Source: Antedon mediterranea (lineage: Eukaryota; Echinodermata; Crinoidea; Comatulida; Antedonidae). Taken from it: a DNA stretch of 64,000 bases. The stretch spans positions 32,982,501-33,046,500 of the forward strand of contig NC_092672.1 of assembly GCF_964355755.1 (NCBI RefSeq), read 5' to 3'. The translations under genes and the position numbers were made by a program. Positions 3,904-58,839 of this stretch are shown here, piece after piece (position 1 is the first letter of the stretch; each line of letters begins with the position of its first letter). Under the pieces are notes generated by a model. That model searched no databases and was not told where the DNA came from. It saw nothing but the letters and a program-made list of their open reading frames with translations.

Positions 3904-5300
3904 AGAGTGGTTTCCACTAGAACGCAACGTAACGCAATCAACGCAGCGTAAAGCGTGGTTCCCACTAGCGACGCAACGCAAGGACGTAACGCAACGCAAG
4001 TGAATTGACTAATCACAAGCGATGGCTTATTCGCTTGTGATTGCTAAAGCGTGGTTCCCACTAGAACGTAACGCAAGGATGTAAACGCAACGCAAGCGTT
4101 TTAACCAATGACAAGCGAAGTTATAGACAGCAATCACAAGCGAATAAGCCATCGCTTGTGATTGGTCAATTCAGTTGCGTTGCGTTACGTCCTTGTGTTG
4201 CGTCGCTAGTGGGAACCACGCTTAACTGTCTATAACTTCGCTTGTCATTGGTTAAAACGCTTGCGTTTCGTTTACGTCCTTGCGTTACGTTCTAGTGGGA
4301 ACCAAGCTTAAAGTGTGGTTCCCACTAGAACGCAACGCAACGTAACGCAGCGACGTATCGATTAGTAGTATCAATACCATATTTCCGTTTTTATCGTTGT
4401 TGTTTTCTTTTTTTTTCTTACGTTGCGTAGATTGCGTTACGTTGCGTAGATTGCGTTACGTTGCGTCGCTAGTGAGAACCAAGCTGAAGAAGGAAGGGCA
4501 TTTGCTAAAGCGTGGTTCCCACTAGCGACGTAACGTAACGCAAACGACGCAACGTACGAAAATGCCCTTCCAATCATTGTCTTTGCCCCCGCCTGCGTGA
4601 AATCAAACCTGTGATTTTTACAGCAATGTTGCGTCGTCGGTTAAAGATTAATTCGAAACTTCCAATAGAGGGCTGCGGCAAGAGAAATGTTTCTCTCAAA
4701 GAGTGTTTGTTTGGTAGACAGCAGCAGTGCTTTAGCCTAGACTACCGGACTGGATTGTTATGCTTGGTTACCACTAGGACGCAACGCAATGACGTAGAAG
4801 CAACGTAAAGCGTGGTTCCCACTAGAATGAAACGTAACGCAGCGACGTATCGACGCAAAGTGCTATATTGCGTAATCACAAGTGGGAACCGATGACGCAA
4901 TGCGCAACAGTGCTGCAAAAATCGCAGGTTTGATTTCACGCAGGCGGGGGAAAACACAATTATTGTAAGGGAATTTTCTTATGTTGCGTATAGATTGCGT
5001 TACGTTGCGCCGCTAGTGAGAACCAAGTTGAGTTGACCAATGACAAGCGACTTTTCGATAATCCATCGCTTGTTAAAGCTTGGTTCCCACTAGAACGTAA
5101 CGCAAGGACGTAAACGCAATGAAAGCTTTTTAACCAATGACAAGCGAAGTTATAGACAGTTAGCAATCACAAGCGAATAAGCCATCGCTTGTGATTGGTC
5201 AATTCACTTGCGTTGCATTACGTCCTTGTGTTGCGTCGCTAGTGGGAACCACGCTTTACGTTGCCTTGCGTTGCGTCCTAGTGGGAACCAAGCTTTATGT
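3904..5300. mobile_element. Cluster of nested TGGTTCCCACTAG/ACGCAACG MITEs
   Basis: At least five arms of one MITE family are packed together. The usual terminus is 'AAGCGTGGTTCCCACTAG', followed by 'ACGCAACGCAAGGACGTAA', 'ACCAATGACAAGCGA' and 'CAATCACAAGCGAATAAGCC' blocks, then the mirror image. A standard two-arm copy is at about 5,075-5,255. A block at 3,949-4,311 has four arms in interlocked order. A second subfamily (4,507-4,950), also seen at 23,484-23,705 and 58,190-58,345, carries a 'TGCGTGAAATCAAACCT' body. Short open frames here are by-products of the repeats. Confidence 0.8.
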
Positions 5301-24066: not shown

Positions 24067-24608
24067 GTAGTCTATAAGTGCTAGCTGTATAAACCGACAA
24101 TAGCCTGTGCTCTCCAGAGAGAGGGCTTTAGATACGAAAGTGAAAAGTTCCTAGAACACCCCTGTATTATAATGGACCAGTCCGCAACCACGCCCTGCCT
24201 CATGTGGGAACGTACCAACGTACCACTGTCATCATTTTCTTTCGTAACGTGAGAACGTTACGACGTATAGAGAAGGATACTAAGTGTTAACTTTGTTGTA
24301 CATTATACATATACTATACAAGTTACCTACTTTCGAACACTGTTTATAAATGCCAGTTGCAGTACCAGCACTTGATATCAAACTATATATATCAAGTGCT
24401 GGTACTGCAACCGCCGTCGAAAGAAAATGATGATAGTGGTACGTTGGTACTGTACGTTCCCACATAAGGGCGTGGTTGCGGACTGGTCAATTATAATACA
24501 AGGGTGTTCTACTGTAGGAACTTTTTACTTTCATATCTAAAGCCCTCCCTCTGGAGAGCACGGGCTATTGTTGGTTTAAACAGGTAAGCTAGGCACGATA
24601 TAGACTAC
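24067..24608. mobile_element. Long-hairpin transposable element
   Basis: Two imperfect arms of about 180 bp face each other. The left arm has 'ACAATAGCCTGTGCTCTCCA', 'AGGGCTTTAGATA' and 'GACCAGTCCGCAACCACGCC'. The right arm has their reverse complements 'GGCGTGGTTGCGGACTGGTC', 'TATCTAAAGCCCT' and 'TGGAGAGCACGGGCTATTGT'. The outer ends are GTAGTCTATAAGTG and a CACGATATAGACTAC counterpart. The arms enclose a separate perfect hairpin. No protein is encoded. Confidence 0.8.
24357..24410. repeat. Perfect 22-bp hairpin with 10-nt loop
   Basis: The arm 24,357-24,378 (containing 'GTACCAGCACTTGATAT') is exactly complementary to 24,389-24,410. The loop is CAAACTATAT. It lies inside the larger inverted-repeat element. 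It could give a small-RNA precursor if transcribed, but nothing here shows that. Confidence 0.85.
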
Positions 24609-28998: not shown

Positions 28999-29798
28999 TG
29001 TTATGCGCGATTTGAACGATTTGCGCAATTTGAAATTGCGCAAAAAAATCCTTGCGCAATTTGAAATTGCGCAAAGAATTTTTGCGCAATTTCAAATTGC
29101 GCAAGGATTCTTTTGCGCAATTTCAAATTGCGCAATCAACTTGCGCAATTTCAAATTGCGCAAGAAAATCTTTGCGCAATTTTAAATTGCGCTGCACAAT
29201 TTGTAAATTGCGCAAGATAGTTCTTGCGCAATATGACACCTTTGCGCAATTTGAAAACGAACTGTAAATTTTCCCATACATGGCTAGGCTAGGCCTAGGC
29301 AGAGGAGGTTTAAAATTTAGTATTTTATTATATAAATAAGACCATTTCAATGAAGATAATGTTTAATACTCACTTTTTAAGTTTTTAATATTAGTTTAAG
29401 CTAGGCCATGTAACCTAGTCAGTATCAGTAGTCCAGACCCTGGCTAGGCTAGAGTAGTATAGCCGGCCGCCCGCGCCGCGCCCGCCTGGTGGAACACCAC
29501 CGCTTCGTTTTCCTTCGTCGGTTCTTCGACGGTATGCTAACTTATAACAATATTTGCACTACTAAAATAAGGAAATGCGATATTTATCTTTAATTTTGAA
29601 TCATTCTTAGAAATTACTATAAAAATATGGGTGTGCATGATTTCACAATCTGCCGAAAAACCTTGCGCAATTTGCAGATTACTTGCGCAATTTAATACGT
29701 TGCTTGCGCAATTTGAAACACATGTTTCAATTCAAATTGCGCAAGGATTTTTTTTGCGCAATTTCAAATTGCGCAAATCGTTCAAATCGCGCATAACA
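28999..29798. mobile_element. Foldback element of TTGCGCAA palindromes, copy 1
   Basis: The ends are TGTTATGCGCGATTTGAACG and its reverse complement, flanked by CATAG on both sides (28,994-28,998 and 29,799-29,803). The left arm is an array of near-palindromic units of the form TTGCGCAATTT(C/G)AAATTGCGCAA; the right arm is shorter. The centre (about 29,460-29,530) is a GC-rich patch with CCGGCCGCCCGCGCC. The centre matches the copy at 55,722-56,587 in inverted orientation. Open frames rich in 'LRK' and 'AQF' are by-products of the palindromes. No transposase is seen. Confidence 0.88.
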
Positions 29799-38557: not shown

Positions 38558-41500
38558 CATGTCAAAATTATTCTACTTACTCTAGTAGCTAGATCAACTT
38601 TCGTATGCACTTTGAGGTCCAGAGAATTTGACTTCAGAAATTGGTTTAGGGTGGTCAAACAATCATTTTTGGCTTGGTTACACATTTTGAAAATGTGGCG
38701 AAAGGTCAAAAGGTCAGGGTCAAAGGTTATAAGATCAAACACCATTATGTCCTTAAATCTCAACAACCACTGGTCACAGCGAGGTAATTTTGGTCTCAAA
38801 TTGATCAGAAGGTATACATTCATATTCAGTATAATGAAACATTTTAGTCGAAAATGACCGGAAATGCCATTTCTGACCTTTGACCAATAAACCAGGGCAT
38901 ATCTGTATCTCCGTAACTATTGGCCGTAGAGACTTGAATTTGGGCTCAAATTGTTCGAAATATACATTTAGTTATTTGTTACACATTTTGAACAATGTTA
39001 CAAAAGGTCAAAAGGTCAAGGCCAGGGGTTATATGAATAAACACAAATAGGTATTTGTATCTCGGCAACCACAGGTCACAGCGAGTAAATTTTGGTCTCA
39101 AAATGTTCAGAAGGTATACATTCATATTCAGTCTAATGAAACATTTTAGTAAAAAATGACCGGAAATGACATTTCTGACCTTTGACATACATACCAGGGC
39201 ATCTTCTTATCTCTGTAAGTACAGGTCGTATAAACTTAAATTTAGTATCAAATTGTTAGAAATACACATATTTACATTCATTCTAACAGAAAATTTGGAT
39301 AAAAAATGATCAGAAATACTATTAATTACTAATCTTTTAAATGAAAAACATATCTACCCAACTTATCATTAGACAGTAATGTTATGCAATAATTGATGCT
39401 TAATGATTTCATTATACTGTAGGAATTAAAACAAATCCTTTACTGTTTGTAATAATTGTACTTTTGCTTATAATAATGCTAGAAAGTGTTGTTGACCCCC
39501 GAACGTTCAAACATTTTTGAGAATGCTAGAAGTAATTTACTGTAGTTACCCGAATAAAAGCCTCGGGCATTTATTTATTCAGGGAAGGCGTTTATTTTGT
39601 TGGGTGTAATAATGGTAACATGTATAATCAAATAAATACACCCCAGATATATATATAAATAAAGATATATATAATATAATAAGAATAATAACGGGATTAA
39701 ACCTCATTCTATCCTGGTGGAAGTACAATCATGTAGGCCTAATAAAAGGTATCGGAGACCACAATAATAGACCAAGTCATTGTCATTATTACGTAACACT
39801 GTTGCATAATAGTTTTGAATGTCAACGACAAAACTTATACATATACACGTCTGTTCCCAGTGTAGATAATAAAACAATATATATTTCTGGAGATTTATTA
39901 TCAATACCACTAGAAACTTTGACATGTTTTAGGTACTGAATGCATTGACAATAAAAGCATCAGAAGTTTATCATGATAAAATCATACTACAACACTGTAC
40001 TACAGTACACAAGGGTGTTTTCAGGAAAGCTGGACATATTGTACAATAGTAATGAAACTATGTATTGGCATAAAACTATGCAAAAGATTGTTGTCGAATT
40101 GTAGTTACAAACAAATAGATGATAGAATGAAGATCCATTATGAGTGCAATCGTGTCAGGATAATGATGTGTCATTGTTTTATATCATTATACTGGCACCT
40201 GGAGGAGAAGATCCATTTAATGGAATCTATCACTTTTATTTTAAAAGACAGAAAGATTTCGTTAAAAAGCATAAAGAGGAAAACGAATCATGTAAAGTAC
40301 CTTTTATCAGTTGAGAAACGAAATACAATTATTAAAATTAGAGTATTCCTTCAAATAAACGCCACCATTCCCTCCAATAGAACACCATGTGGAATAAACG
40401 CCCCGCCACATGCATTTACACAATAATTGTATCACGTCAACACATTTCATTAACTACCATAAATCTACAATTTACCAAGCATTTTGACATAATTTTATCA
40501 CTTTTTTATATTAATTGTGCAGTATTTTTTTACATCTAGGTGGTATTTATTTGATTATACATGTTACCATATTATACCCCAAATAAAGATGCCTGTCAAA
40601 AGGTCAAGGCCAGGGGTTATATGAATAAACACAAATAGGTATTTGTATCTCGGCAACCACAGGTCACAGCGAGTAAATTTTGGTCTCAAAATGTTCAGAA
40701 GGTATACATTCATATTCAGTCTAATGAAACATTTTAGTAAAAAATGACCGGAAATGACATTTCTGACCTTTGACATACATACCAGGGCATCTTCTTATCT
40801 CTGTAAGTACAGGTCGTATAAACTTAAATTTAGTATCAAATTGTTAGAAATACACATATTTACATTCATTCTAACAGAAAATTTGGATAAAAAATGATCA
40901 GAAATACTATTAATTACTAATCTTTTAAATGAAAAACATATCTACCCAACTTATCATTAGACAGTAATGTTATGCAATAATTGATGCTTAATGATTTCAT
41001 TATACTGTAGGAATTAAAACAAATCCTTTACTGTTTGTAATAATTGTACTTTTGCTTATAATAATGCTAGAAAGTGTTGTTGACCCCCGAACGTTCAAAC
41101 ATTTTTGAGAATGCTAGAAGTAATTTACTGTAGTTACCCGAATAAAAGCCTCGGGCATTTATTTATTCAGGGAAGGCGTTTATTTTGTTGGGTGTAATAA
41201 TGGTAACATGTATAATCAAATAAATACACCCCAGATATATATATAAATAAAGATATATATAATATAATAAGAATAATAACGGGATTAAACCTCATTCTAT
41301 CCTGGTGGAAGTACAATCATGTAGGCCTAATAAAAGGTATCGGAGACCACAATAATAGACCAAGTCATTGTCATTATTACGTAACACTGTTGCATAATAG
41401 TTTTGAATGTCAACGACAAAACTTATACATATACACGTCTGTTCCCAGTGTAGATAATAAAACAATATATATTTCTGGAGATTTATTATCAATACCACTA

Positions 41501-43319
41501 GAAACTTTGACATGTTTTAGGTACTGAATGCATTGACAATAAAAGCATCAGAAGTTTATCATGATAAAATCATACTACAACACTGTACTACAGTACACAA
41601 GGGTGTTTTCAGGAAAGCTGGACATATTGTACAATAGTAATGAAACTATGTATTGGCATTTAAAACTATGCAAAAGATTGTTGTCGAATTGTAGTTACAA
41701 ACAAATAGATGATAGAATGAAGATCCATTATGAGTGCAATCGTGTCAGGATAATGATGTGTCATTGTTTTATATCATTATACTGGCACCTGGAGGAGAAG
41801 ATCCATTTAATGGAATCTATCACTTTTATTTTAAAAGACAGAAAGATTTCGTTAAAAAGCATAAAGAGGAAAACGAATCATGTAAAGTACCTTTTATCAG
41901 TTGAGAAACGAAATACAATTATTAAAATTAGAGTATTCCTTCAAATAAACGCCACCATTCCCTCCAATAGAACACCATGTGGAATAAACGCCCCGCCACA
42001 TGCATTTACACAATAATTGTATCACGTCAACACATTTCATTAACTACCATAAATCTACAATTTACCAAGCATTTTGACATAATTTTATCACTTTTTTATA
42101 TTAATTGTGCAGTATTTTTTTACATCTAGGTGGTATTTATTTGATTATACATGTTACCATATTATACCCCAAATAAAGATGCCTTCTTTCCCCCTAAAAA
42201 CCATTTTGAACAATGAATGCCTGGGGCGTTTAATCGGATACATATGGCAAGTTACTTCTAGCATTCTGAAAAGAACTGTTGAGCTTAACGTTTCTATCAA
42301 AATGTCCTCGGGGACAGCAATAACTAGTATTTGAAATTAAAACAATTTAAAGTATCAGTTATTGCATAACATTACTGTCTAAGGATAAGTTGTGTAGATA
42401 TGTTTTTTGTTTGAAACATTGGTAATAGTATTTCTGTTCATCTTTTAACCACATTTTCTATTACAATGAATGTAAATATATATATTTCGAACAATTTGAT
42501 ACCAAATTTAAGTTTCTACGACCTGTACTTACAGAGATATGAAGATGCCCTGGTATGTGGGTCAAAGGTCAGAAATGGCATTTCTGATCATTTTTGACTA
42601 AAATGCCCCATTAGATGGAATATAAATGCATGCCTTCTAAACATTTTGAGACCAAAATTGACTTGCTGCGACCAGTGGTTGCCGAGATACAAGTACCTTC
42701 TTTTATTTGTTCAAATAACCCATGACCTTGACCCTTTGACCTTTTGTAACATTTTTCAAAATGTGTAACAAATAACAAAACATATATTTCGAACAATTTA
42801 AAACCAAATTCAAGTGTCTACGACCAGTAGTTACGGAGATACATACATGCCCTAGGTTGTGGGTCAAAGGTCATAAATGGCATTTCCGGTCATTTTTTAA
42901 TAAAATGTCCCATTAGACTGAATATAAATGTATACCTTCTGATTAATTTAAGACCAAAATTACCTCGTTGTGACCAGTGGTTGTTGAGATTTAAGGACAT
43001 ATTTATGTTTGGTCTTATGACTTTTCACCTTGACCTTTTGACCTTTCGCCACATTTTCAAAATGTGTAACCAAGCCAAATATGATTGTTTGACCACCCTA
43101 AACCAATTTCTGAAGTCAAATTCTCTGGACCTCAAAGTGCATACGAAAGTTGATCTAGCTACTAGAGTAACTGCAGTAGATACATTTCATTTTTCGTTTA
43201 ATCTTTAACCTGTCAATACACACTGTTTATTGCAGTGACCCACTCATAGTGGCAAAGTAAAATAATACCTTTACAGTGAAGTATTACTGCAGTAATTGCA
43301 GTAGAATAATTTTGACATG
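38558..43319. mobile_element. 4.8-kb foldback element with about 1-kb arms
   Basis: The termini CATGTCAAAATTATTCTAC (38,558) and its reverse complement (to 43,319) begin arms that pair imperfectly to about 39,560 on the left and 42,200 on the right. Each arm holds degenerate repeats of about 230 bp with 'AAAAGGTCAAAAGGTCA', 'GACCGGAAATG..ATTTCTGACCTTTGAC' and 'ACCAGGGCAT' words. The right arm carries the complementary 'TGACCTTTTGACCTTT'. The interior has 'GAATAAAAGCCTCGGGCATT' and 'AATAAACGCC' text and two copies of a 1.59-kb segment. The frames at 40,052-40,426 and 41,561-42,016 resemble no known transposase. The element is non-autonomous. Confidence 0.82.
39007..42184 (+). repeat. Near-identical 1.59-kb tandem duplication
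   Basis: 39,007-40,594 and 40,595-42,184 read the same base for base wherever compared, apart from a 2-base difference ('GGCATAAAAC' versus 'GGCATTTAAAAC', near 40,070 and 41,660). The unit runs from the left arm of the foldback element to just before its right arm. Confidence 0.9.
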
Positions 43320-49800: not shown

Positions 49801-52800
49801 CCTCCAAGACCAGCACCAGCAGCTCCAAACATAGACATCATTATAGCTAGGCCCGCAGTGGTACCAAGAAAGGCTGCACCCGAACCAAACAGAGCTACAC
49901 CAGCTGTGGCGACTAGTGGAGCAGCAAGTCCTCCAGTTAGGCCTAAAAGTAAAACACAATACTATTATATTTAAAAACAACAAACATCCATATTTCTTCA
50001 TCATCATCCAATTTCTTTTTTTTTGGCACAGAGATAAAATTGTCAGGGAATGCAAAAGTAATTAAGATTAACTAAAATATATAAATAATATATTTTGATG
50101 TGTATATATATAAAAATACTCTTACCAATAAGAGCGCCACCCCCGACAGTTGCTGCACCAATAGCAAAATATCTCTTTACTTTTGTGCGCTTTGAACGTT
50201 TTTCTTTTTCAGCTTTTTGTTCCCTGTCAACAGAAATGATAAAATATATATTAGTTCATCATTTGGAAATGCAAGAGTTACCCCTGACTGTCTTATCAGC
50301 CTATACGTTTTTAAAGCCTATTCCATGGAGGCTCAAAACAAAACATTCTATACTCAGTTTTAAGTACTTCATTATATCACAAAAATCTGTACAACACAAG
50401 TGTAAATTGTTATTGAAGTCAATATCAAAGAATTTATCAATCAAAAACTGAACTAGAAATGAAACTATAACGTTTAATTACTCGGTTTCAATGATTTCTT
50501 CTTGCTCGAAGCTTTCAACGATCATGTCTTCAAAGCTGTTAACGTCTTCTCTAGGTACGGCCATTAACTCGGCAATATGAAAGATGATGAACCTTGATCT
50601 TGCATCATAATTTCCTTTTTCTATAGTAATTCCCAAAAGATCCTATAATTCAAATATTATTCATCGATTTGGTTATTAAGTTTTGTCCATAAAATCATTA
50701 AAAAACATTGATGGCATGATATGTCCAGTATCATAGGTAAATTCAGAATACAGTGTCACATATGTGCTTCCTGTATTATGACAAGGTTCAGCTTATTGCC
50801 TATGATACGGTGTAATATGTGATACACGGGACACTGTATCACAGAATTTTCCTATGACACCGTAAATGATAGATAGGCCTACAGTACGGCAAATCGAATA
50901 ATATTACTGACCTGTGCAACAATGCTTGGATTGTCTTTGATCATCCAATCATCTTTGAGTATTTCAACATACGCATTAGCATGCAGCGGTCTCAAGTCTT
51001 CATGCAAAAACTGAACCATTGTCTTCTCAACTCCCCTCTTCGCTTTTAAATGTTTACATAGGGCTTTGATATAGTTATCTTTCCAACTCCTGGAAAAGAA
51101 AATTTAACAAAAATATGTTGCTATAAAGTTTGCGGTACACCATGTTTATTTAGTTCTGAAATGATTTCGAGTCACTACAATAAACAGTGTGTATGTAATT
51201 GCACTTATTAAAAACAACTTGTTAAATAATTGCATAAACAGGTTAAAGAATAATGTTAGTTACTGCAGTAAAATAGTTTGACATGGTAAGTTATAACAAA
51301 AGTTGTAATAAATAATAATTAAACATACTTGTGCCATTGGTCACTGAAAGTTGTTGCCAACGCAACAGCAACCAACGAAATATAAGCAAACTCTCCAGTC
51401 TCTGTTAAGATGTCAGACATCCCCATGCCTTTCTCTGCCAATTCAACAAGAGGTGTTTTTTCTTTCTTCGTCTTCCCTGCTGCTTCAGTAACTTTGGCAG
51501 AACAGACTTCATTTTCCTGTTGAGGTGGTTTCTCACATGAAGGTGCATCTTTAGATTGTGCTGCAACTGTATTCCCTGCCTCTGGTTTTGATTGAGCTTT
51601 TATTTGGTCATGACCAGCATTCTCTGCCTCATCAGGTTTTGACCGAGATTCAACATCAAGGAGGGGATGCCATATTTTGACATCACTGTTCTTTTCTGCT
51701 TCTACCTCTACCACAACTGAATTCTTTGTTTTTTCCTTTTTATTTTCTTGGACAGATATTTTTTCTTCTTCTTGTGAAACTAAATCTTTATTTTCAAGGT
51801 TAAGAAGAGGATGCTGTATTTTGACATCACTGTTCTTTTCTGCTCCTTCATCTGCCATAACTGAATTCTGTGATTTTTCCTCTTTGTTTTCTTGAACAGA
51901 TAATTTTTCTTCTTCTTGTGAACCTAAATCTATATTTTCAAGGTTAAGAAGAGGATGCTGTATTTTGACATCAATGTTCTTTTCTGCTCCTTTATCTGCT
52001 ACAACTGAATTCTTTGTTTTTTCTTTGTCAGCGTTATGAAGAGGATGCTGTATCTCCTCTTTCAAATCGCTGGTTTCCTCATTATCTTTTGAACACATTG
52101 CTTCTATGGCAAGCTCACAGGCACTTGGTGGAACATTTGGTTGTAAGGTTTTTTCCATAAGTTGTTTATCAGACGCTGCCTCCTTTTCATTATCCTTGGC
52201 TTCGATGTGTTGCATATTTGATAGCTTTTTACGGTGGTCTGTAGTTTCATTTTCTAAATCAGTTGCCTCACATTCTTCATTATTTTTAACTTTATTACCT
52301 TTTGAAGTAGTTTCGTCAATTGGTATTGTTTCATTTTCTAAAATAGTTGCATCACAATTTCCATAATTCTCTCCTCTACTAAATTGAGTCTGTTGAGCTT
52401 CCTTTTCTGAATCAGTTGCAACATCATGATCTTCACAATCATCTTCATCAACTTGAGTTTTTAGAGGATTTTTATTTTGGTCAGTCTGGTGCGCTTCTTT
52501 TTCAAAATTAATAGAATCAAGGTTTTCATTTGTAACTCTTCTTTGACCCCTTTGTTCTTCTTCTTGTTCTTGCTGTTCATTAAGGTCATCTGACATCATA
52601 ATCTCATCAGTAGAGGTGCTTTCAGTGCATTCCATACTGACATCTTCATTCGGAGGTCTTAATAGGTTTTCATTATCATTTTTGTCTACTGCTTTACAAT
52701 CAATTTTACTAGCTGTTGTATCTGTCTTGACTTGAGCATGTTGGATTTGAGATTTCCCAGTGATCTCACCATTAACTTCTTTGGTAACAACATTCTCAAC

Positions 52801-52950
52801 TTCTGCACTATTCTTTGAATTTTCTTCTATGCATTCTGTATTTACATGTGTATCTTGTTTGGAAGAGTATGTTCCTTCTTTGTTGAATTCTGATTGTTCA
52901 GAATTAACAGCAGCTTCCAGTAAATTACAATTTACATCATCAGTTTCCAT
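46841..52950 (-). CDS. TMCO4: TMCO4 homologue (DUF726 protein)
   Basis: Twelve coding exons, 5' to 3': 52,950-51,329; 51,089-50,912; 50,642-50,482; 50,223-50,126; 49,942-49,802; 49,544-49,425; 49,141-48,977; 48,855-48,719; 48,618-48,534; 48,269-48,152; 48,042-47,922; 47,272-46,841. All phases agree, giving 1,125 residues. The C-terminal half follows the family throughout: a glycine/alanine-rich hydrophobic segment (about 670-733, 'IGAATVGGG', 'MSMFGAAGAGLGG'), then 'GYKMKRRVGAIEEF', 'WESKYLKNLGDGLE' and 'AIDNPWSLVTRRS'. A lipase-like nucleophile elbow 'LIGFSMGARVIF' (about 880) follows, then 'VVSGRIINGYCRGDWLLQF' and 'DIVGGHLDY'. This suggests a membrane-associated alpha/beta-hydrolase fold; whether it has lipase activity is not known from the sequence. 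The first exon encodes about 480 extra acidic, low-complexity residues. The start ATG has G at -3 and G at +4. Confidence 0.93.
47450..47830. other. Unclassified sequence in TMCO4 last intron, possible SINE relic
   Basis: It is GC-richer than its surroundings, with 'CCTTATCCGAGAAGACTCG' and 'ACCACTCGGGTTAAGCACTC'. It resembles a decayed short retroposon, but no tail or second copy is visible here. Confidence 0.3.
48346..48475. mobile_element. MITE, GTCTACACTATCAAAC family, in a TMCO4 intron
   Basis: 'AAAGCTCCGTCTACACTATC' begins it and 'AAGTAGTTTGATTGTGTAAG' ends it. Internal text is 'TATGGACATATCACTACC' and 'ATTTGGGCACATCACA'. Confidence 0.7.
49198..49332. mobile_element. MITE, TAGTGTAGACAGAGC family, in a TMCO4 intron
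   Basis: Two 'CCCAAATATGGTAGT' units, 'GACATCATCATGTCC' and the right end 'TTGATAGTGTAGACAGAGC' are present. The left end is lost. Confidence 0.65.
50728..50868. repeat. Inverted repeat in a TMCO4 intron (MITE candidate)
   Basis: 'ATCATAGGTAAATTCAGAAT' plus 'ACAGTGTCACATATG' on the left faces 'CACTGTATCACAGAATTTTC' plus CTATGACACC on the right. A related inverted repeat is near 16,565-16,715. Confidence 0.55.
51655..52045 (-). repeat. 144-bp coding tandem repeat in TMCO4 exon 1
   Basis: The first coding exon encodes about 2.6 copies of a 48-residue unit containing 'AEKNSDVKIQHPLLNLEN' and 'SQEEEKLSVQEN', preceded by a partial 'EEIQHPLHN'. The unit length is a multiple of three, so the frame is kept. 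Confidence 0.88.
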
Positions 52951-52952
52951 GT
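52951..52952 (-). other. 5'UTR bases and acceptor of the first TMCO4 coding exon
   Basis: Only AC separates the acceptor 'TTTAATTATAG' (AG at 52,954-52,953) from the ATG. A non-coding upstream exon is therefore needed. A donor-like 'AAAG|GTAGGC' at 53,931/53,930 in front of a purine-rich stretch up to about 54,010 is a candidate. Confidence 0.45.
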
Positions 52953-53099
52953 CTATAATTAAAGAATAATGTCATACAAATATTAAAAATAATTGTACTA
53001 TACTAGGCCTAGGCCTATTATCATTTCTTTGACGTCACTTGAGTACTACAAACCGTTATCTTGCTAATTATTATCTAATGAAAGTAGGCCTACTGTATC

Positions 53100-53139
53100 C
53101 ATGGAGGTATAAAATAATATATAATTTTATACCTCCATG
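53100..53139. repeat. 40-bp palindrome
   Basis: The 16-bp arms CATGGAGGTATAAAAT (53,100-53,115) and ATTTTATACCTCCATG (53,124-53,139) are exact reverse complements, separated by AATATATA. Confidence 0.75.
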
Positions 53140-53329
53140 CTGTATCTAGACCTATTAGGTTAATTATTAATATTATATTAAAATTGTTGATTAATGAATT
53201 AATGAGTTGGAATTTTTTCTGGCTTTGGGTTTAATTAACCAATCAATGTATGGCATAAAAAACCGGCTCTTGGACTACTTAGTACTAGCTTTATAGGCTA
53301 CTATTATTATTATTATTAGTATTATATGG

Positions 53330-53637
53330 AGGTACAGTAGGCCTACTCGTCCTCTAGCTAGGGCCTAACTAGTAGTCTAGGCCTAGCTAGGCTAGTAGGA
53401 GGCCCCAGTAGGCCTATTATTACCTAGGCCTAAAAATATAATATATAACCTACCTAGGCCTAGTAGTAGTAGTAGGCTACTACTAGGCCTAGCTAGAGGC
53501 CCCGGCCTAGGTAGGCCTAGACTAGCTTAGGCCTACTAGGCCTACTAGATACTGATAGAGTAGTTGGCCTGTCCCCTGCTGCTGGCCCCGATACCCACTA
53601 GGCCTAGGCCCCCTACCTAGCTAGCCTAGGCTAGGCC

Positions 53638-53679
<42 letters not shown>

Positions 53680-53830
53680 GCCTAGGCCTAGTAGTAGTAG
53701 CCTAGTCTAGGTAGGCCTTAGTTAGGCCTAGCTAGCCTAGCTAGTACGTAGCCTTGATTAATAGAAGGAGGATTACTAGCCTGGCCCTATCACTAACTGC
53801 AGGTACAAACTGGCCTAGGCCTAGACAATT
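53330..53830. repeat. AGGCCTAG low-complexity tract with (TAG)n microsatellite
   Basis: Dense TAGGCCTAG, CTAGCTAGG and CTACTAGTAG words fill the tract, as at 28,590-28,980. A pure (TAG)n run of about fourteen units sits at 53,637-53,679. The tract lies just upstream of the TMCO4 coding start, where its first non-coding intron is expected. Confidence 0.8.
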
Positions 53831-54229
53831 AAACTAACTGCTAACACTAAACATATGTATATCTAAATGGCGATAAAGCAATACTTTTTATTATCTTATT
53901 ATGCTTTTAGCATAAAAAACGTACGCCTACCTTTCTCTTTCTCCCCTATTTCCTTTAAATCCGGCGAGTCACTCACTCTAATTTTATTTTAGTTATACGC
54001 CCTCTATAAAACAGCAAGTTTTTTACACGACGACGTAGAATCTCGTAGATTGTTCTTTATGAATATAATATTCAGAAAAAGTATATCACAGCAGAAACGA
54101 TTAAGTGCAAAAAGGTCTTACGACCTGGTCTACAGACCTTATATTTTTAATTTTATCATACAACTAAATAATAATTAAATACATCATGAGTGTACATAGC
54201 CTACTAGTAGGCCTACGTAATTGCTTGTA

Positions 54230-55190
54230 CGTTATAATAATAATAATTTATTGGAAAATTCACTTTTACAACAGTGGCACACTTTGATGATAAAGGTGCG
54301 TCCAAATAATAACATACAAGAATAAATAAAATTATTAACTTAAAAATAAATCAAAATGAATGAATGAAATACAAAACATAACTCTAATAATTAAATACTT
54401 TAAATCAAAATAAATAAATAAAACAAACTTGAGAGGAATAAAAATAAATAAAAATGTTTAGATACACACAAAATAAATAATAAAATTAATTTCATGGTAT
54501 GAATCAAAATAAAGAGTATAACGGTGTGTGTAATACTCAACACTAAGGCATAATAAATAAAATAAAAAGACAAAGATTACGAAACAGAAATCAAAATGAC
54601 ACACAAAAGTTGAAAAGCAGTTCAAAACACAACAGCATTGACGTTATAAGTTTAAAAGAGCACAACGTTTCTTCCATAAAGATTTAGCCAATGATTTACA
54701 GAATTTGTCGATTAAAGACTTAATATTATTATCAAATAAATCATGGTCATTGCCTAGAATAAGAAGGGTTTTGTTGAATAAATCTAAATTCTGAAAATAG
54801 TCAAAGAGATAAAAAGATTACATTCCAAAAGTTCTTGTTGGAATTTAGCAATTTGGTTTTTTCTCTCTTCTTCTAGAGTGGTACATGTTAGGAGAAAGTG
54901 CATAATGGTTTCTTCTTCATTTCTGTTGCACAATTTACAACAACCATTAGCATTAGGGTCATTTGACCATTTAGATGTTTTTCTTTCAAGGGGAAGGGTG
55001 TTTGATCGCAGCTTAAATTTTAACGATGCTCCTTCAGAGTCAATTTTATCAAGTAGATACTGTTCAAGTTTTGGTTCATTTTTTATATACATATAATGTT
55101 CAATTGACGTTTTACATTTACCGTCTTCAACCCAATGCGAGAGAGCTAGATTTTTCATAATTATTTTTGTTTTGTTCCATGGATTCGGTC
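54230..55190 (-). mobile_element. 5'-truncated LINE relic
   Basis: On the minus strand 55,158-54,784 encodes 124 residues. Its 'LKFKLRSNTLPLERKTSKW' and 'CKLCNRNEEETIMHFLLTC' motifs are typical of the region after the reverse transcriptase in invertebrate non-LTR retrotransposons (Cys-rich 'CxxC..EExxHFLLxC' end). The A/T-rich stretch to 54,230 with ATAATAATAATT would be the 3'UTR and tail. No reverse-transcriptase core is present, so it is a dead copy. Confidence 0.75.
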
Positions 55191-55666
55191 CATGCTTAAT
55201 GTACTGTTACCATAATGCCGATACATACTGTATACTATTTTGTAGGAAAACGAAAAAATTAAATAGTACAACTGCGTCGTATATCCATATTCGATGTGAA
55301 CACTAACTGACAAATTGTTATTAGTTACAATTGTAGGCATAAAATACATAAACAGTAATCCAAGGATTGAATTTACACGATTCTTTTTTTCAGAGACCGC
55401 TACAATGTGAACGGTAATTCTGATTGGTTAAATAAAGTTGCATAGTCACACCTAACAGTTTTTATTGGGTAATTGTTTTGTGTACCTTGTGTTCACTGAA
55501 CTGTATCAAATTCAACCAAAGTAAAAACAACCCAGGGCGTCAGGAAGCTATCAGCAGGAAGGTCCAGTAGGCCTAGCCATTCTTACATTGTCCGGCGATA
55601 GTCTTTCTTTAACTTCATATATTTGACCAATAATAATTTTATAATTTTCCAAATTGAATATTGCTT

Positions 55667-58600
55667 ATGAAAGACGGAGTTATGACGAGTTCTAAGAAGA
55701 GCTGGAACTTTACGATGGTAATGTTATGCGCGATTTGAACGATTTGCGCAATTTGAAATTGCGCAAAAAAAATCCTTGCGCAATTTGAATTGAAACATGT
55801 GTTTCAAATTGCGCAAGCAACGTATTAAATTGCGCAAGTAATCTGTAAATTGCGCAAGGTTTTTCGACAGATTGTGAAATCATGCATACCCATATTTTTA
55901 TAGTAATTTCTAAGAATGATTCAAAATTAAAGATAAATATCGCATTTCCTTATTTTAGTAGTGCAAATATTGTTATAAGTTAGCATACCGTCGAAGAACC
56001 GACGAAGGAAAACGAAGCGGTGGTGTTCCACCAGGCGGGCGCGGCGCGGGCGGCCGGCTATACTACTCTAGCCTAGCTAGGGTCTGGACTACTGATACTG
56101 ACTAGGTTAGCTTAAACTAATATTAAAAACTTAATTTTTACATTTATTTTGATTTATTTCAAGTTACAGTGATAATATTATTTAATTGTAATAATAAATG
56201 TTATGTATTTATTACACACATCTTCGCATTTATTATGTTTTATTTTGAGTTATTTAGTTTCCAATAAATTATTATAATACCGATTGTCTGGTAGAATTTT
56301 GTTGCGCAATTTGAAAATTTACAGTTCGTTTTCAAATTGCGCAAAGGTGTCATATTGCGCAAGAACTATCTTGCGCAATTTACAAATTGTGCAGCGCAAT
56401 TTAAAATTGCGCAAAGATTTTCTTGCGCAATTTGAAATTGCGCAAGTTGATTGCGCAATTTGAAATTGCGCAAAAAAATCCTTGCGCAATTTTAAATTGC
56501 GCAAGAATTCTTTGCGCAATTTCAAATTGCGCAAGGATTTTTTTGCGCAATTTCAAATTGCGCAAATCGTTCAAATCGCGCATAACAGTAATATTAGGCC
56601 TATTTGGCTTATCAGCAACGTGCGGGCTTGGGCAACTTATTAAAATAGGTGGTGGTAATGTAGGAGAAACATCAAGCCCGCTCACAAAAGAGACAGATAG
56701 TTTTACGTTTAAAATATACTGGGGCCTGGCTTCTAAATGCTCAAATCTGGGCATAGATCTTGAATTGCAAAAGTGGGGTATTTCAGCAAATAAAGACACA
56801 TCGGTGGAAATGGGTGACGTTTTTAATGCTTTCCATAGCGGCAACTTTGGGTATCCGTACATCGATGATGACACTAGGAAGTTTATAAATGGTGGACTAC
56901 CGCAGGTAAGATAAAATTTACTTTAAAAAAATAATGTTTCCCTCAGACAACCAGTCTGAGGGAATATTAGCACAAATAACCAGATTGAATGTCTACTCTA
57001 ATGTACAGTAAGAACCCCTATCCTTTCCGAGGAGACCTTCCTACCTGAAAAAAGTACAAACAATTCCTATTAAGGAGCACTTTGATGTGTCCCGAAGGTT
57101 TCCCATTAATAGGGGTTCCAAACGATCACAGACTTATAGTCTCTCTATAGGCATAGTTTTTCACATCTTATAATAGTTGTACACTTTATTTTTTTATTTT
57201 TTTTTTTTATTTAATCGAAACCAACAGCGATAATTACCGCCACTAACAGGTTTGATACAAACAAAGCCAGGACTGTTTAAAGCACCTTGATTGGTCCTAA
57301 CATTGATCAATGGCTTCTCTCGTCCAGTGCCCACCTTGTACACATAATTACACAGTATCTACTTTGTTTTTGTGTTTTATTATTTATGATTTCATTTTTA
57401 TTTTTTCAGGCAAGAAACCTCAGGAAACATTTAGAAATAGCAACAGTTGAAATCATCAAAAAAATTCCAAATTCTCAATTCAATGGACTTGCAATCATAG
57501 ACTGGGAAAAGTGGAAACCACACCTGGATGAAAACTTTGATAAACGAACAATTTATAAAAACGCTTCTGTTGATCTAGTGAAACAGAGAATACCAAACCT
57601 AAACAATACATCTGTATATGAATTAGCTAAAGTTGAATATGAGATGGCAGCCGAAAGTTTAATGAAAGGTGTTCTACGCTTGGGGAAAACCCTACGCCCA
57701 AATGCATCATGGGGGTTTTATCATTACCCATACTGCCATAATAAAGAACCATCTACAGACTATGAATGCTTAAATGCGACTGTCGCAAGCAACGATAAGA
57801 TGACGTGGTTGTTTGACGAGAGTAGCGCCATCTTCCCGTCAATATATCTCCTTCCATACGTGAAAAATAACCTTGAGTTTGTGAATAGTAAGTTACAAGA
57901 AGCTCTGCGTGTTGTGAATAACTTAAAAGAGCCAGGCAAGCCAGTGTATGTGTACAATCGCTTTAATTATTCCAATTCAGGATTGTATTACAACATAGTA
58001 AGTGAAAACCAATTCTAAAACAGTAAAAAAATAATTCATATCAACCTCTACAACAACCTCCATCCTCAGTGAGAGATCTAGGAAGAAAAAATTGTCAAAT
58101 TAAGTACTTTTGTACCGAACTTAAGTATAAGTCCTATATAGGTGCCAGGCTGGCTTCCCCACCAGCCTTAAATCCAATATGATCACCATCTCCCAACCCC
58201 ACAAACGAACCCTTCCATTAATTGTGTTTTCTCCCGCTTGCTTGAAGTTAAACCTGCGATGTTTACAGCACTATGTTGCGTTGCGTCAACGGTTCCCACT
58301 TTTGATTATGCAACACAGCACTTTGTGTCAATACGTTCTAGTGGGGACCACCAAAGCCTGTTCTCCCAATGATGTGATGTTGAAATTAACAGCATTTCAA
58401 CAATGAATGGTAGGCCTACTATAAATTCTGTTCTAACATCAGGCTGGAGTAGAAAATGATTTTTAATGCTTAATTTTACAAAAAAATTATTTTTCTTTAT
58501 TAAAATTTTGTTTAGGGTGATATCGAAATGAGCGTGTGTAAAGCCGCCATTTTATCATTTGATGGAATTGTTCTCTGGGGTTCTAAAGAAGCACTGGAAA

Positions 58601-58839
58601 ACACGCAATCATGCACGGAACTTAAACAACTACTCGCAACAGTGTACGGCCCTGCGTTGCTAAATACGAAGACACAAGCCGAAAGTTGTGGCAACAAAAT
58701 GTGCTCTGGTCATGGTAGATGTTTATTAGATGATGCAAGATTTGTGAGTGATGCATTATGGGATTGGCGGAGATTGGATTTTGTTAAATGCAGATGTTTG
58801 ACCGGTTGGACTGGTAATAATTGCTCAAAGAAACCCTGA
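55667..58839 (+). CDS. GH56 hyaluronidase gene, interrupted in its signal-peptide exon
   Basis: Pieces: 55,667-55,721 (N-terminal codons); foldback insertion 55,722-56,587 with GTAA repeated at 56,588-56,591; 56,592-56,905; 57,410-57,997; 58,516-58,839. All introns are GT/AG and phase 0. Without the insertion the product would be about 426 residues, the usual length of the family. The family hydrolyses hyaluronan or chondroitin outside the cell or in lysosomes. Visible features: 'KIYWGLASKC' near the N-terminus, 'FNGLAIIDWEKWKP' with the catalytic Asp-x-Glu, 'WGFYHYPYC', 'WLFDESSAIFPSIYL', and a C-terminal EGF-like module 'CGNKMCSGHGRC..CRCLTGWTGNNC'. Several N-glycosylation sites are present. 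The ATG at 55,667 has a second in-frame ATG at 55,682 with better context. As written, the 5' frame meets TGA inside the insertion and the 3' frame has no ATG before the codon for 'VEMGDV', so this allele is probably non-functional unless spliced around. Confidence 0.85.
55722..56587. mobile_element. Foldback element of TTGCGCAA palindromes, copy 2, inside the hyaluronidase gene
   Basis: The 866-bp element has ends TGTTATGCGCGATTTGAACG and its reverse complement, and GTAA flanks both sides (55,718-55,721 and 56,588-56,591). The short arm is on the left and the long palindromic array on the right, opposite to copy 1 at 28,999-29,798. The central GC-rich patch (about 55,985-56,060) matches copy 1 in reverse complement. 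About 100 bp of AT-rich text near 56,130-56,290 is not shared, so the two copies differ by replacement or extra sequence there. Confidence 0.9.
58150..58346. mobile_element. Degraded 'TGAAATCAAACCT'-subfamily MITE in hyaluronidase intron
   Basis: 'TTGTGTTTTCTCCCGCTTGC', 'AAACCTGCGATGTTTACAGC', 'GGTTCCCACTTTTGATTATG' and 'GTTCTAGTGGGGACC' follow the subfamily at 23,484 and 4,507. It lies in the last intron. Confidence 0.55.

Follow-up and report, generated by a model that had tools for sequence, protein, structure and literature searches.

A recent foldback element insertion that probably breaks the leader codons of a hyaluronidase-type gene in the crinoid Antedon mediterranea

Among described DNA transposons, Ginger2 elements carry TGTNR ends, generate 4-bp target-site duplications and favour an RTATAY target (PMC2836005), and they and the related TDD elements (with 5-bp duplications) have inverted repeats of about 50–180 bp. 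TGT...ACA ends together with 4-bp duplications can occur in IS481EU elements as well (PMC10045372). A foldback architecture, with long inverted arms made of short repeated units, is described for Tetris of Drosophila virilis (PMC4079207) and for Tm1 of root-knot nematodes (PMC3169594), the latter under a title naming it Mutator/Foldback, and some introners derive a splice site from their 4-bp duplication (PMC9860276). On the side of the host gene, the nearest described proteins are the GH56 hyaluronidases such as PH-20 and HYAL1; in echinoderms no hyaluronan synthase has been found and another substrate specificity has been suggested, according to a review (PMC10381214). The locus compared here with these systems lies in 64,000 nucleotides of Antedon mediterranea genomic DNA (the window, C3:32982501–33046500, within which all positions below are numbered), where an earlier note had proposed that a foldback transposon interrupts the signal-peptide codons of a hyaluronidase gene. 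The features on which the analysis bears are as follows.

55667–55717, plus strand: putative 5′ part of the coding sequence, to the left of the element, with in-frame ATGs at 55667, 55682 and 55715
55718–55721, no strand: left copy of the target-site duplication GTAA flanking the element
55722–56587, no strand: foldback element of 866 bp with TGTTA...TAACA ends and palindromic TTGCGCAATTT-type subterminal repeats
55736–55738, plus strand: TGA ending the left reading frame, at element positions 15–17
56193 and 56263, plus strand: AATAAA motifs inside the element, possible premature polyadenylation signals
56588–56591, no strand: right copy of the target-site duplication GTAA
56591–56905, plus strand: remainder of the first coding exon, on the right side of the element, with a hydrophobic stretch followed by the GH56 N-terminal part
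56810–56812, plus strand: internal Met codon, the start of the public protein P0001 (335 aa)
57410–57997, plus strand: second GH56 exon, encoding 196 aa that include the DWE motif
58516–58839, plus strand: GH56 exon 3, with an EGF-like tail and a TGA stop
28999–29798, minus strand: the window's other copy of this element family, 800 bp long, with the 5-bp duplication CTATG

The hyaluronidase-type gene and its interrupted first exon

The three exon pieces matched PF01630 with 27.9, 206 and 28.7 bits, respectively (cut-off 23.2). The product of exon 2 (196 aa) was 100% identical to the Antedon mediterranea public protein “hyaluronidase-5-like”, and the segments 56810–56905, 57410–57997 and 58516–58839 together encode P0001 in full (335 aa). 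The contig listed for P0001 has 38,962,182 bases and C3 has 38,956,436, so the public model may derive from another release of the assembly. In comparisons with solved structures, exon 2 matched PH-20 (9jub) with an E value of 4.4e-35, aligned over residues 4–190 of 196, and HYAL1 (2pe4) with an E value of 4.7e-32; the first exon piece alone gave no solved-structure match. As in these GH56 hyaluronidases, the gene encodes a DWE motif and EGF-like C-terminal cysteines. D63 and E65 of P0001 (D-x-E) were invariant in nine aligned proteins, and we take them to be the catalytic pair. Unlike in the typical GH56 hyaluronidases, the substrate of the crinoid enzyme may not be hyaluronan, given what the review says of echinoderms (PMC10381214). 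A GH56-like protein was also present in a Phycisphaerales bacterial assembly (P0002, 28% identical, E 2.8e-9).

Two genome scans gave GH56 matches at this locus only, with the reservation that one of them, which used a loose first look, recovered the gene's own exons 2 and 3 and missed exon 1, so that a divergent gene could escape it. At the sensitivity used, the GH56 gene could be shown to be single-copy. Both flanks of the element also occurred once in the assembly (55207–55717 being the left flank tested), and neither an empty allele nor a duplicate gene was present there. Apart from the insertion, the gene was open throughout, with GT/AG borders and no decay elsewhere.

The element and one GTAA add up to 870 bp, which is divisible by three, and both flanks therefore keep a single frame: the ATGs at 55667, 55682, 55715 and 55721 are all in the frame of the downstream exon (2 mod 3), which agrees with the earlier note's claim that the codons on either side match in frame once the element and one GTAA are removed. 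Read as it stands, the left frame meets 23 stops inside the element, the first being the TGA at 55736–55738, within the first 20 bp as had been proposed, and on the right side the frame stays open from 56405 onwards, with its first ATG at 56810, so that, again as proposed, no ATG precedes the mature-protein region. As to the further claim, that the two sides would together form a typical hydrophobic leader, the right piece does read like the hydrophobic stretch of a signal peptide. Just after the element it is hydrophobic (1.88 over 11 residues), and a test stretch of 15 codons that took in the right GTAA reached 2.04; equally hydrophobic and open stretches occurred at 248 of 9129 places in the window (2.7%) and in 1.6% of 20,000 letter shuffles. 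The left piece carries ATGs and basic residues but has no hydrophobic stretch (maximum −0.58 from 55682); it had no homologue and by eye was unlike the leader of the Anneissia protein.

The element, its family and its classification

The termini of the element are TGTTATGCGCG...CGCGCATAACA and its subterminal arrays are made of TTGCGCAATTT palindromes. The terminal inverted repeat is perfect for 50 bp, with the first mismatch at position 51, and a separate measure gave 53 nt at 98%. RNA folding of the element yielded −357.5 kcal/mol against a shuffle mean of −199.9 (sd 7.6, n=20), that is, a z of −20.7. Long inverted arms of repeated units and strong self-folding, both features of foldback elements, are therefore present, and the earlier identification of an 866-bp foldback transposon bounded by GTAA on both sides as a 4-bp target duplication proved to be real, with the fold and the repeated family described below in its favour. 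Other large inverted-repeat structures, of different sequences, occur in the window at 1311–2497, 3939–5268, 24082–24586 and 40595–43042.

In the genome searched (354 Mb, 18 contigs), the exact 20-nt terminus occurred 319 times in forward and 319 times in reverse orientation, the reversed control giving 0. A DNA search of the genome returned 440 candidate copies, and the best 40 of these 440, which were scored, were all 95–100% identical and nearly full length. Target duplications were then counted in a set of 41 copies (the two in the window plus 39 fetched from the best-scoring matches of that search), giving exact 4-bp repeats in 30/41, exact 5-bp repeats in 5/41 and neither in 6/41, one of these six being a copy for which no exact left end was located. 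Among the copies with 4-bp repeats, the 29 whose two ends were exact shared the insertion site T-R-[4 bp]-Y-A, with T at −2 in all 29, a purine at −1 in 28, a pyrimidine after the duplication in 28 and then A in 26; these represent at most 27 independent insertion events, since two pairs of copies with identical 100-bp flanks are duplicates. The pairs concerned, L015/L016 (2.9 kb apart on C9) and L028/L032 (on C6 and C10), share these flanks on both sides, which implies that duplications carried the element along. TATA was the commonest duplication, in just 3/29 copies, two of them copies with identical flanks. The gene insertion site, TG-GTAA-TA, matches the general pattern.

Among the 41 aligned, best-scoring copies, the one in the gene had no private substitution, as was the case for 19/41 copies, and its nearest relative, on C8, differed by 2 substitutions in 866. 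The insertion at the gene consequently looks recent, and the element together with its recent insertion is regarded as secure. The mean pairwise difference in the same set was 1.15%, a figure that overstates the youth of the family because the copies used for dating were the 40 best of 440 candidates. The second copy in the window, at 28999–29798, is in opposite orientation, differs in its interior and has 58 private substitutions.

On the combined evidence of termini, duplication and target, the element is best read as a Ginger2-like foldback MITE, a DNA transposon of non-autonomous type. As in the Ginger2/TDD elements (PMC2836005), TGTNR ends are present (both termini of the window copy being TGTTA), duplications are of 4 bp and in some copies of 5 bp, and the inverted repeats are of about 50 bp; a purine and a pyrimidine surround the duplicated bases, and the commonest duplication is TATA. 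Unlike the elements described there, it contains no transposase, has extended palindromic arrays that make it a foldback element and follows the RTATAY target less strictly. The Ginger2 placement is thus one by resemblance rather than by transposase, because the ends and duplications of IS481EU elements can look alike. Likeness to Tetris and Tm1 lies in the long inverted arms and short repeated units; the 4-bp duplication and TGT...ACA ends, which set it apart from Tm1 (PMC3169594), would point to an integrase-type transposase rather than to Mutator/Foldback.

Ginger2-type elements are mobilised by a transposase that has an H2C2 finger and a DDE domain. No autonomous partner was found in 12 stretches of C1 (each of 10 kb apart from a single one of 1.5 kb), most of them around apparently unpaired ends, and a second end at ≤3 substitutions was present in 9/12, the other three being L055, L057 and L058. 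Nor did a partner occur at 12 variant-end loci, two of which were read further and five to 1.5 kb. Pfam comparison of six chosen open frames gave no transposase, one matching a mitochondrial morphogenesis regulator and the rest showing no match or one below the curated cut-off. As the genome pattern search covered the first 100 places, this partner search inspected a minority of the 638 ends. If the placement holds, the family, with its 638 exact ends, would add a crinoid example to the Ginger2-like foldback MITEs.

Proposed origin of the interrupted allele and alternative readings

The reading that we favour, with a probability of about 0.7, is that of a recent Ginger2-like MITE insertion in the only GH56 gene found, null for the secreted enzyme and probably segregating. 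Under this reading, the start codon of the gene would originally have been the ATG at 55667 or 55682, and a staggered 4-bp cut at TG-GTAA-TA in the first coding exon would have received the foldback MITE in recent times. Translation begun at 55667 or 55682 would now run for 23 or 18 codons, respectively, and stop within the element, and mRNA of the insertion allele would at best give an unsecreted protein from Met 56810 in which the barrel lacks its beginning. Transcripts may also be stopped by the strong hairpin and by the AATAAA motifs at 56193 and 56263. Such a null allele would probably not be fixed, its presence in the assembled haplotype being a matter of chance. The break of the leader codons by the element is likely, and a null, segregating allele is the best reading of the sequence at hand; of loss of function, polymorphism and bypass by the transcript, the three options that had been put forward, the first seems the likeliest.

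Other readings were weighed against this one. The true first coding exon might lie elsewhere, with the element in an intron or in the 5′ leader and the frame match with 55667 due to chance, which for the match alone is one in three. Site scores (donors, acceptors and exon scan, all calculated from splice-site frequencies) lend this some colour, as an acceptor-like site at 56615 reached 2.7, above the gene's own site at 58515 (−3.4), and a candidate upstream exon was seen, running from an ATG at 54499 to a donor at 54524 (phase 1, score 3.9). However, that single candidate in 53,000–55,721 is at chance level (shuffle mean 1.59), no candidate exon with a hydrophobic stretch was present in 52,000–56,590, joining at 56615 would lose the hydrophobic stretch that is present, and in the public model no in-frame start was picked up ahead of 56810; it is considered unlikely that the first exon lies elsewhere. 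Least credible of all is a gene that normally starts at Met 56810, encoding 335 aa with no signal peptide and having the element in its 5′ leader. P0001 does consist exactly of the three exon pieces from 56810, but the right part of the first exon aligned ungapped over 72 aa with Anneissia japonica P0003 (69% identical), and 40 of those residues lie upstream of the start Met of P0001, 29/40 being identical. Pfam coverage tells against it as well, with positions 49–334 of 335 in P0001 and 7–334 in the Anneissia protein. This upstream conservation means that the public model lacks conserved coding sequence; the protein as annotated may be a single-haplotype artefact.

The transcript might also remove the element in the manner of an introner, the duplicated GTAA serving as 5′ splice site, so that the protein is still made. 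The likeness to introners (PMC9860276) is that of a non-autonomous DNA element whose 4-bp duplication is able to offer a 5′ splice site, and the scores are not far from those of the gene itself: the donor ATG|GTAATG scored 1.0, near the weaker of the gene's own donors (1.5, the other being 7.2), and the acceptor CAG at 56586–56588 scored −3.25, near its weaker own acceptor (−3.4). Unlike in introners as described there, the 3′ site that goes with this donor does not keep the frame, and joining 55717 to 56589 places a TAA directly after an in-frame ATG codon. The frame-keeping excision expected of an introner was thus tried with the GTAA donor and CAG 56588 and rejected. Among 43 length-compatible donor–acceptor pairs, 18 were open and none had two good sites: in open pairs where the donor was good the acceptors scored −5.9, −7.9 and −7.3, and the one that used the good acceptor at 56615 had a donor of −8.3. 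Splicing out of the element appears very improbable. The insertion could, on the other hand, be fixed in the species, the sole secreted GH56 enzyme having just been lost. This would accord with the one GH56 locus in the genome scans and with flanks that each occur once, leaving no empty copy in the assembly, but a primary assembly normally represents one haplotype, in which a missing empty allele says little, and the rest of the gene is without decay; fixation is accordingly thought improbable. That either the only secreted hyaluronidase-type enzyme is being lost, by a fixed or common insertion, or a newborn intron has arisen in the leader codons by way of the element's splice sites is, taken as one proposition, doubtful.

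Among the titles listed on Antedon hyaluronidase, crinoid transposons and loss of function by transposable elements, none reports this insertion. The kind of insertion is already known, young-element insertions in genes being common; it is the target, an apparently single-copy GH56 gene of a published assembly, that is worth noting. The insertion fits with the internal-Met start of the public model and serves as a warning on the annotated protein. If it segregates, as in the favoured reading, animals homozygous for it would provide a natural test of the role of GH56 in echinoderms, which reportedly have no hyaluronan synthase (PMC10381214). The case would gain in importance if such animals proved to survive with no secreted GH56 activity. 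Directly upstream of the gene, a 140-aa open frame on the minus strand (54784–55206) gave a below-cut-off match to PF13966 (zinc-binding in reverse transcriptase) and is probably a LINE remnant.
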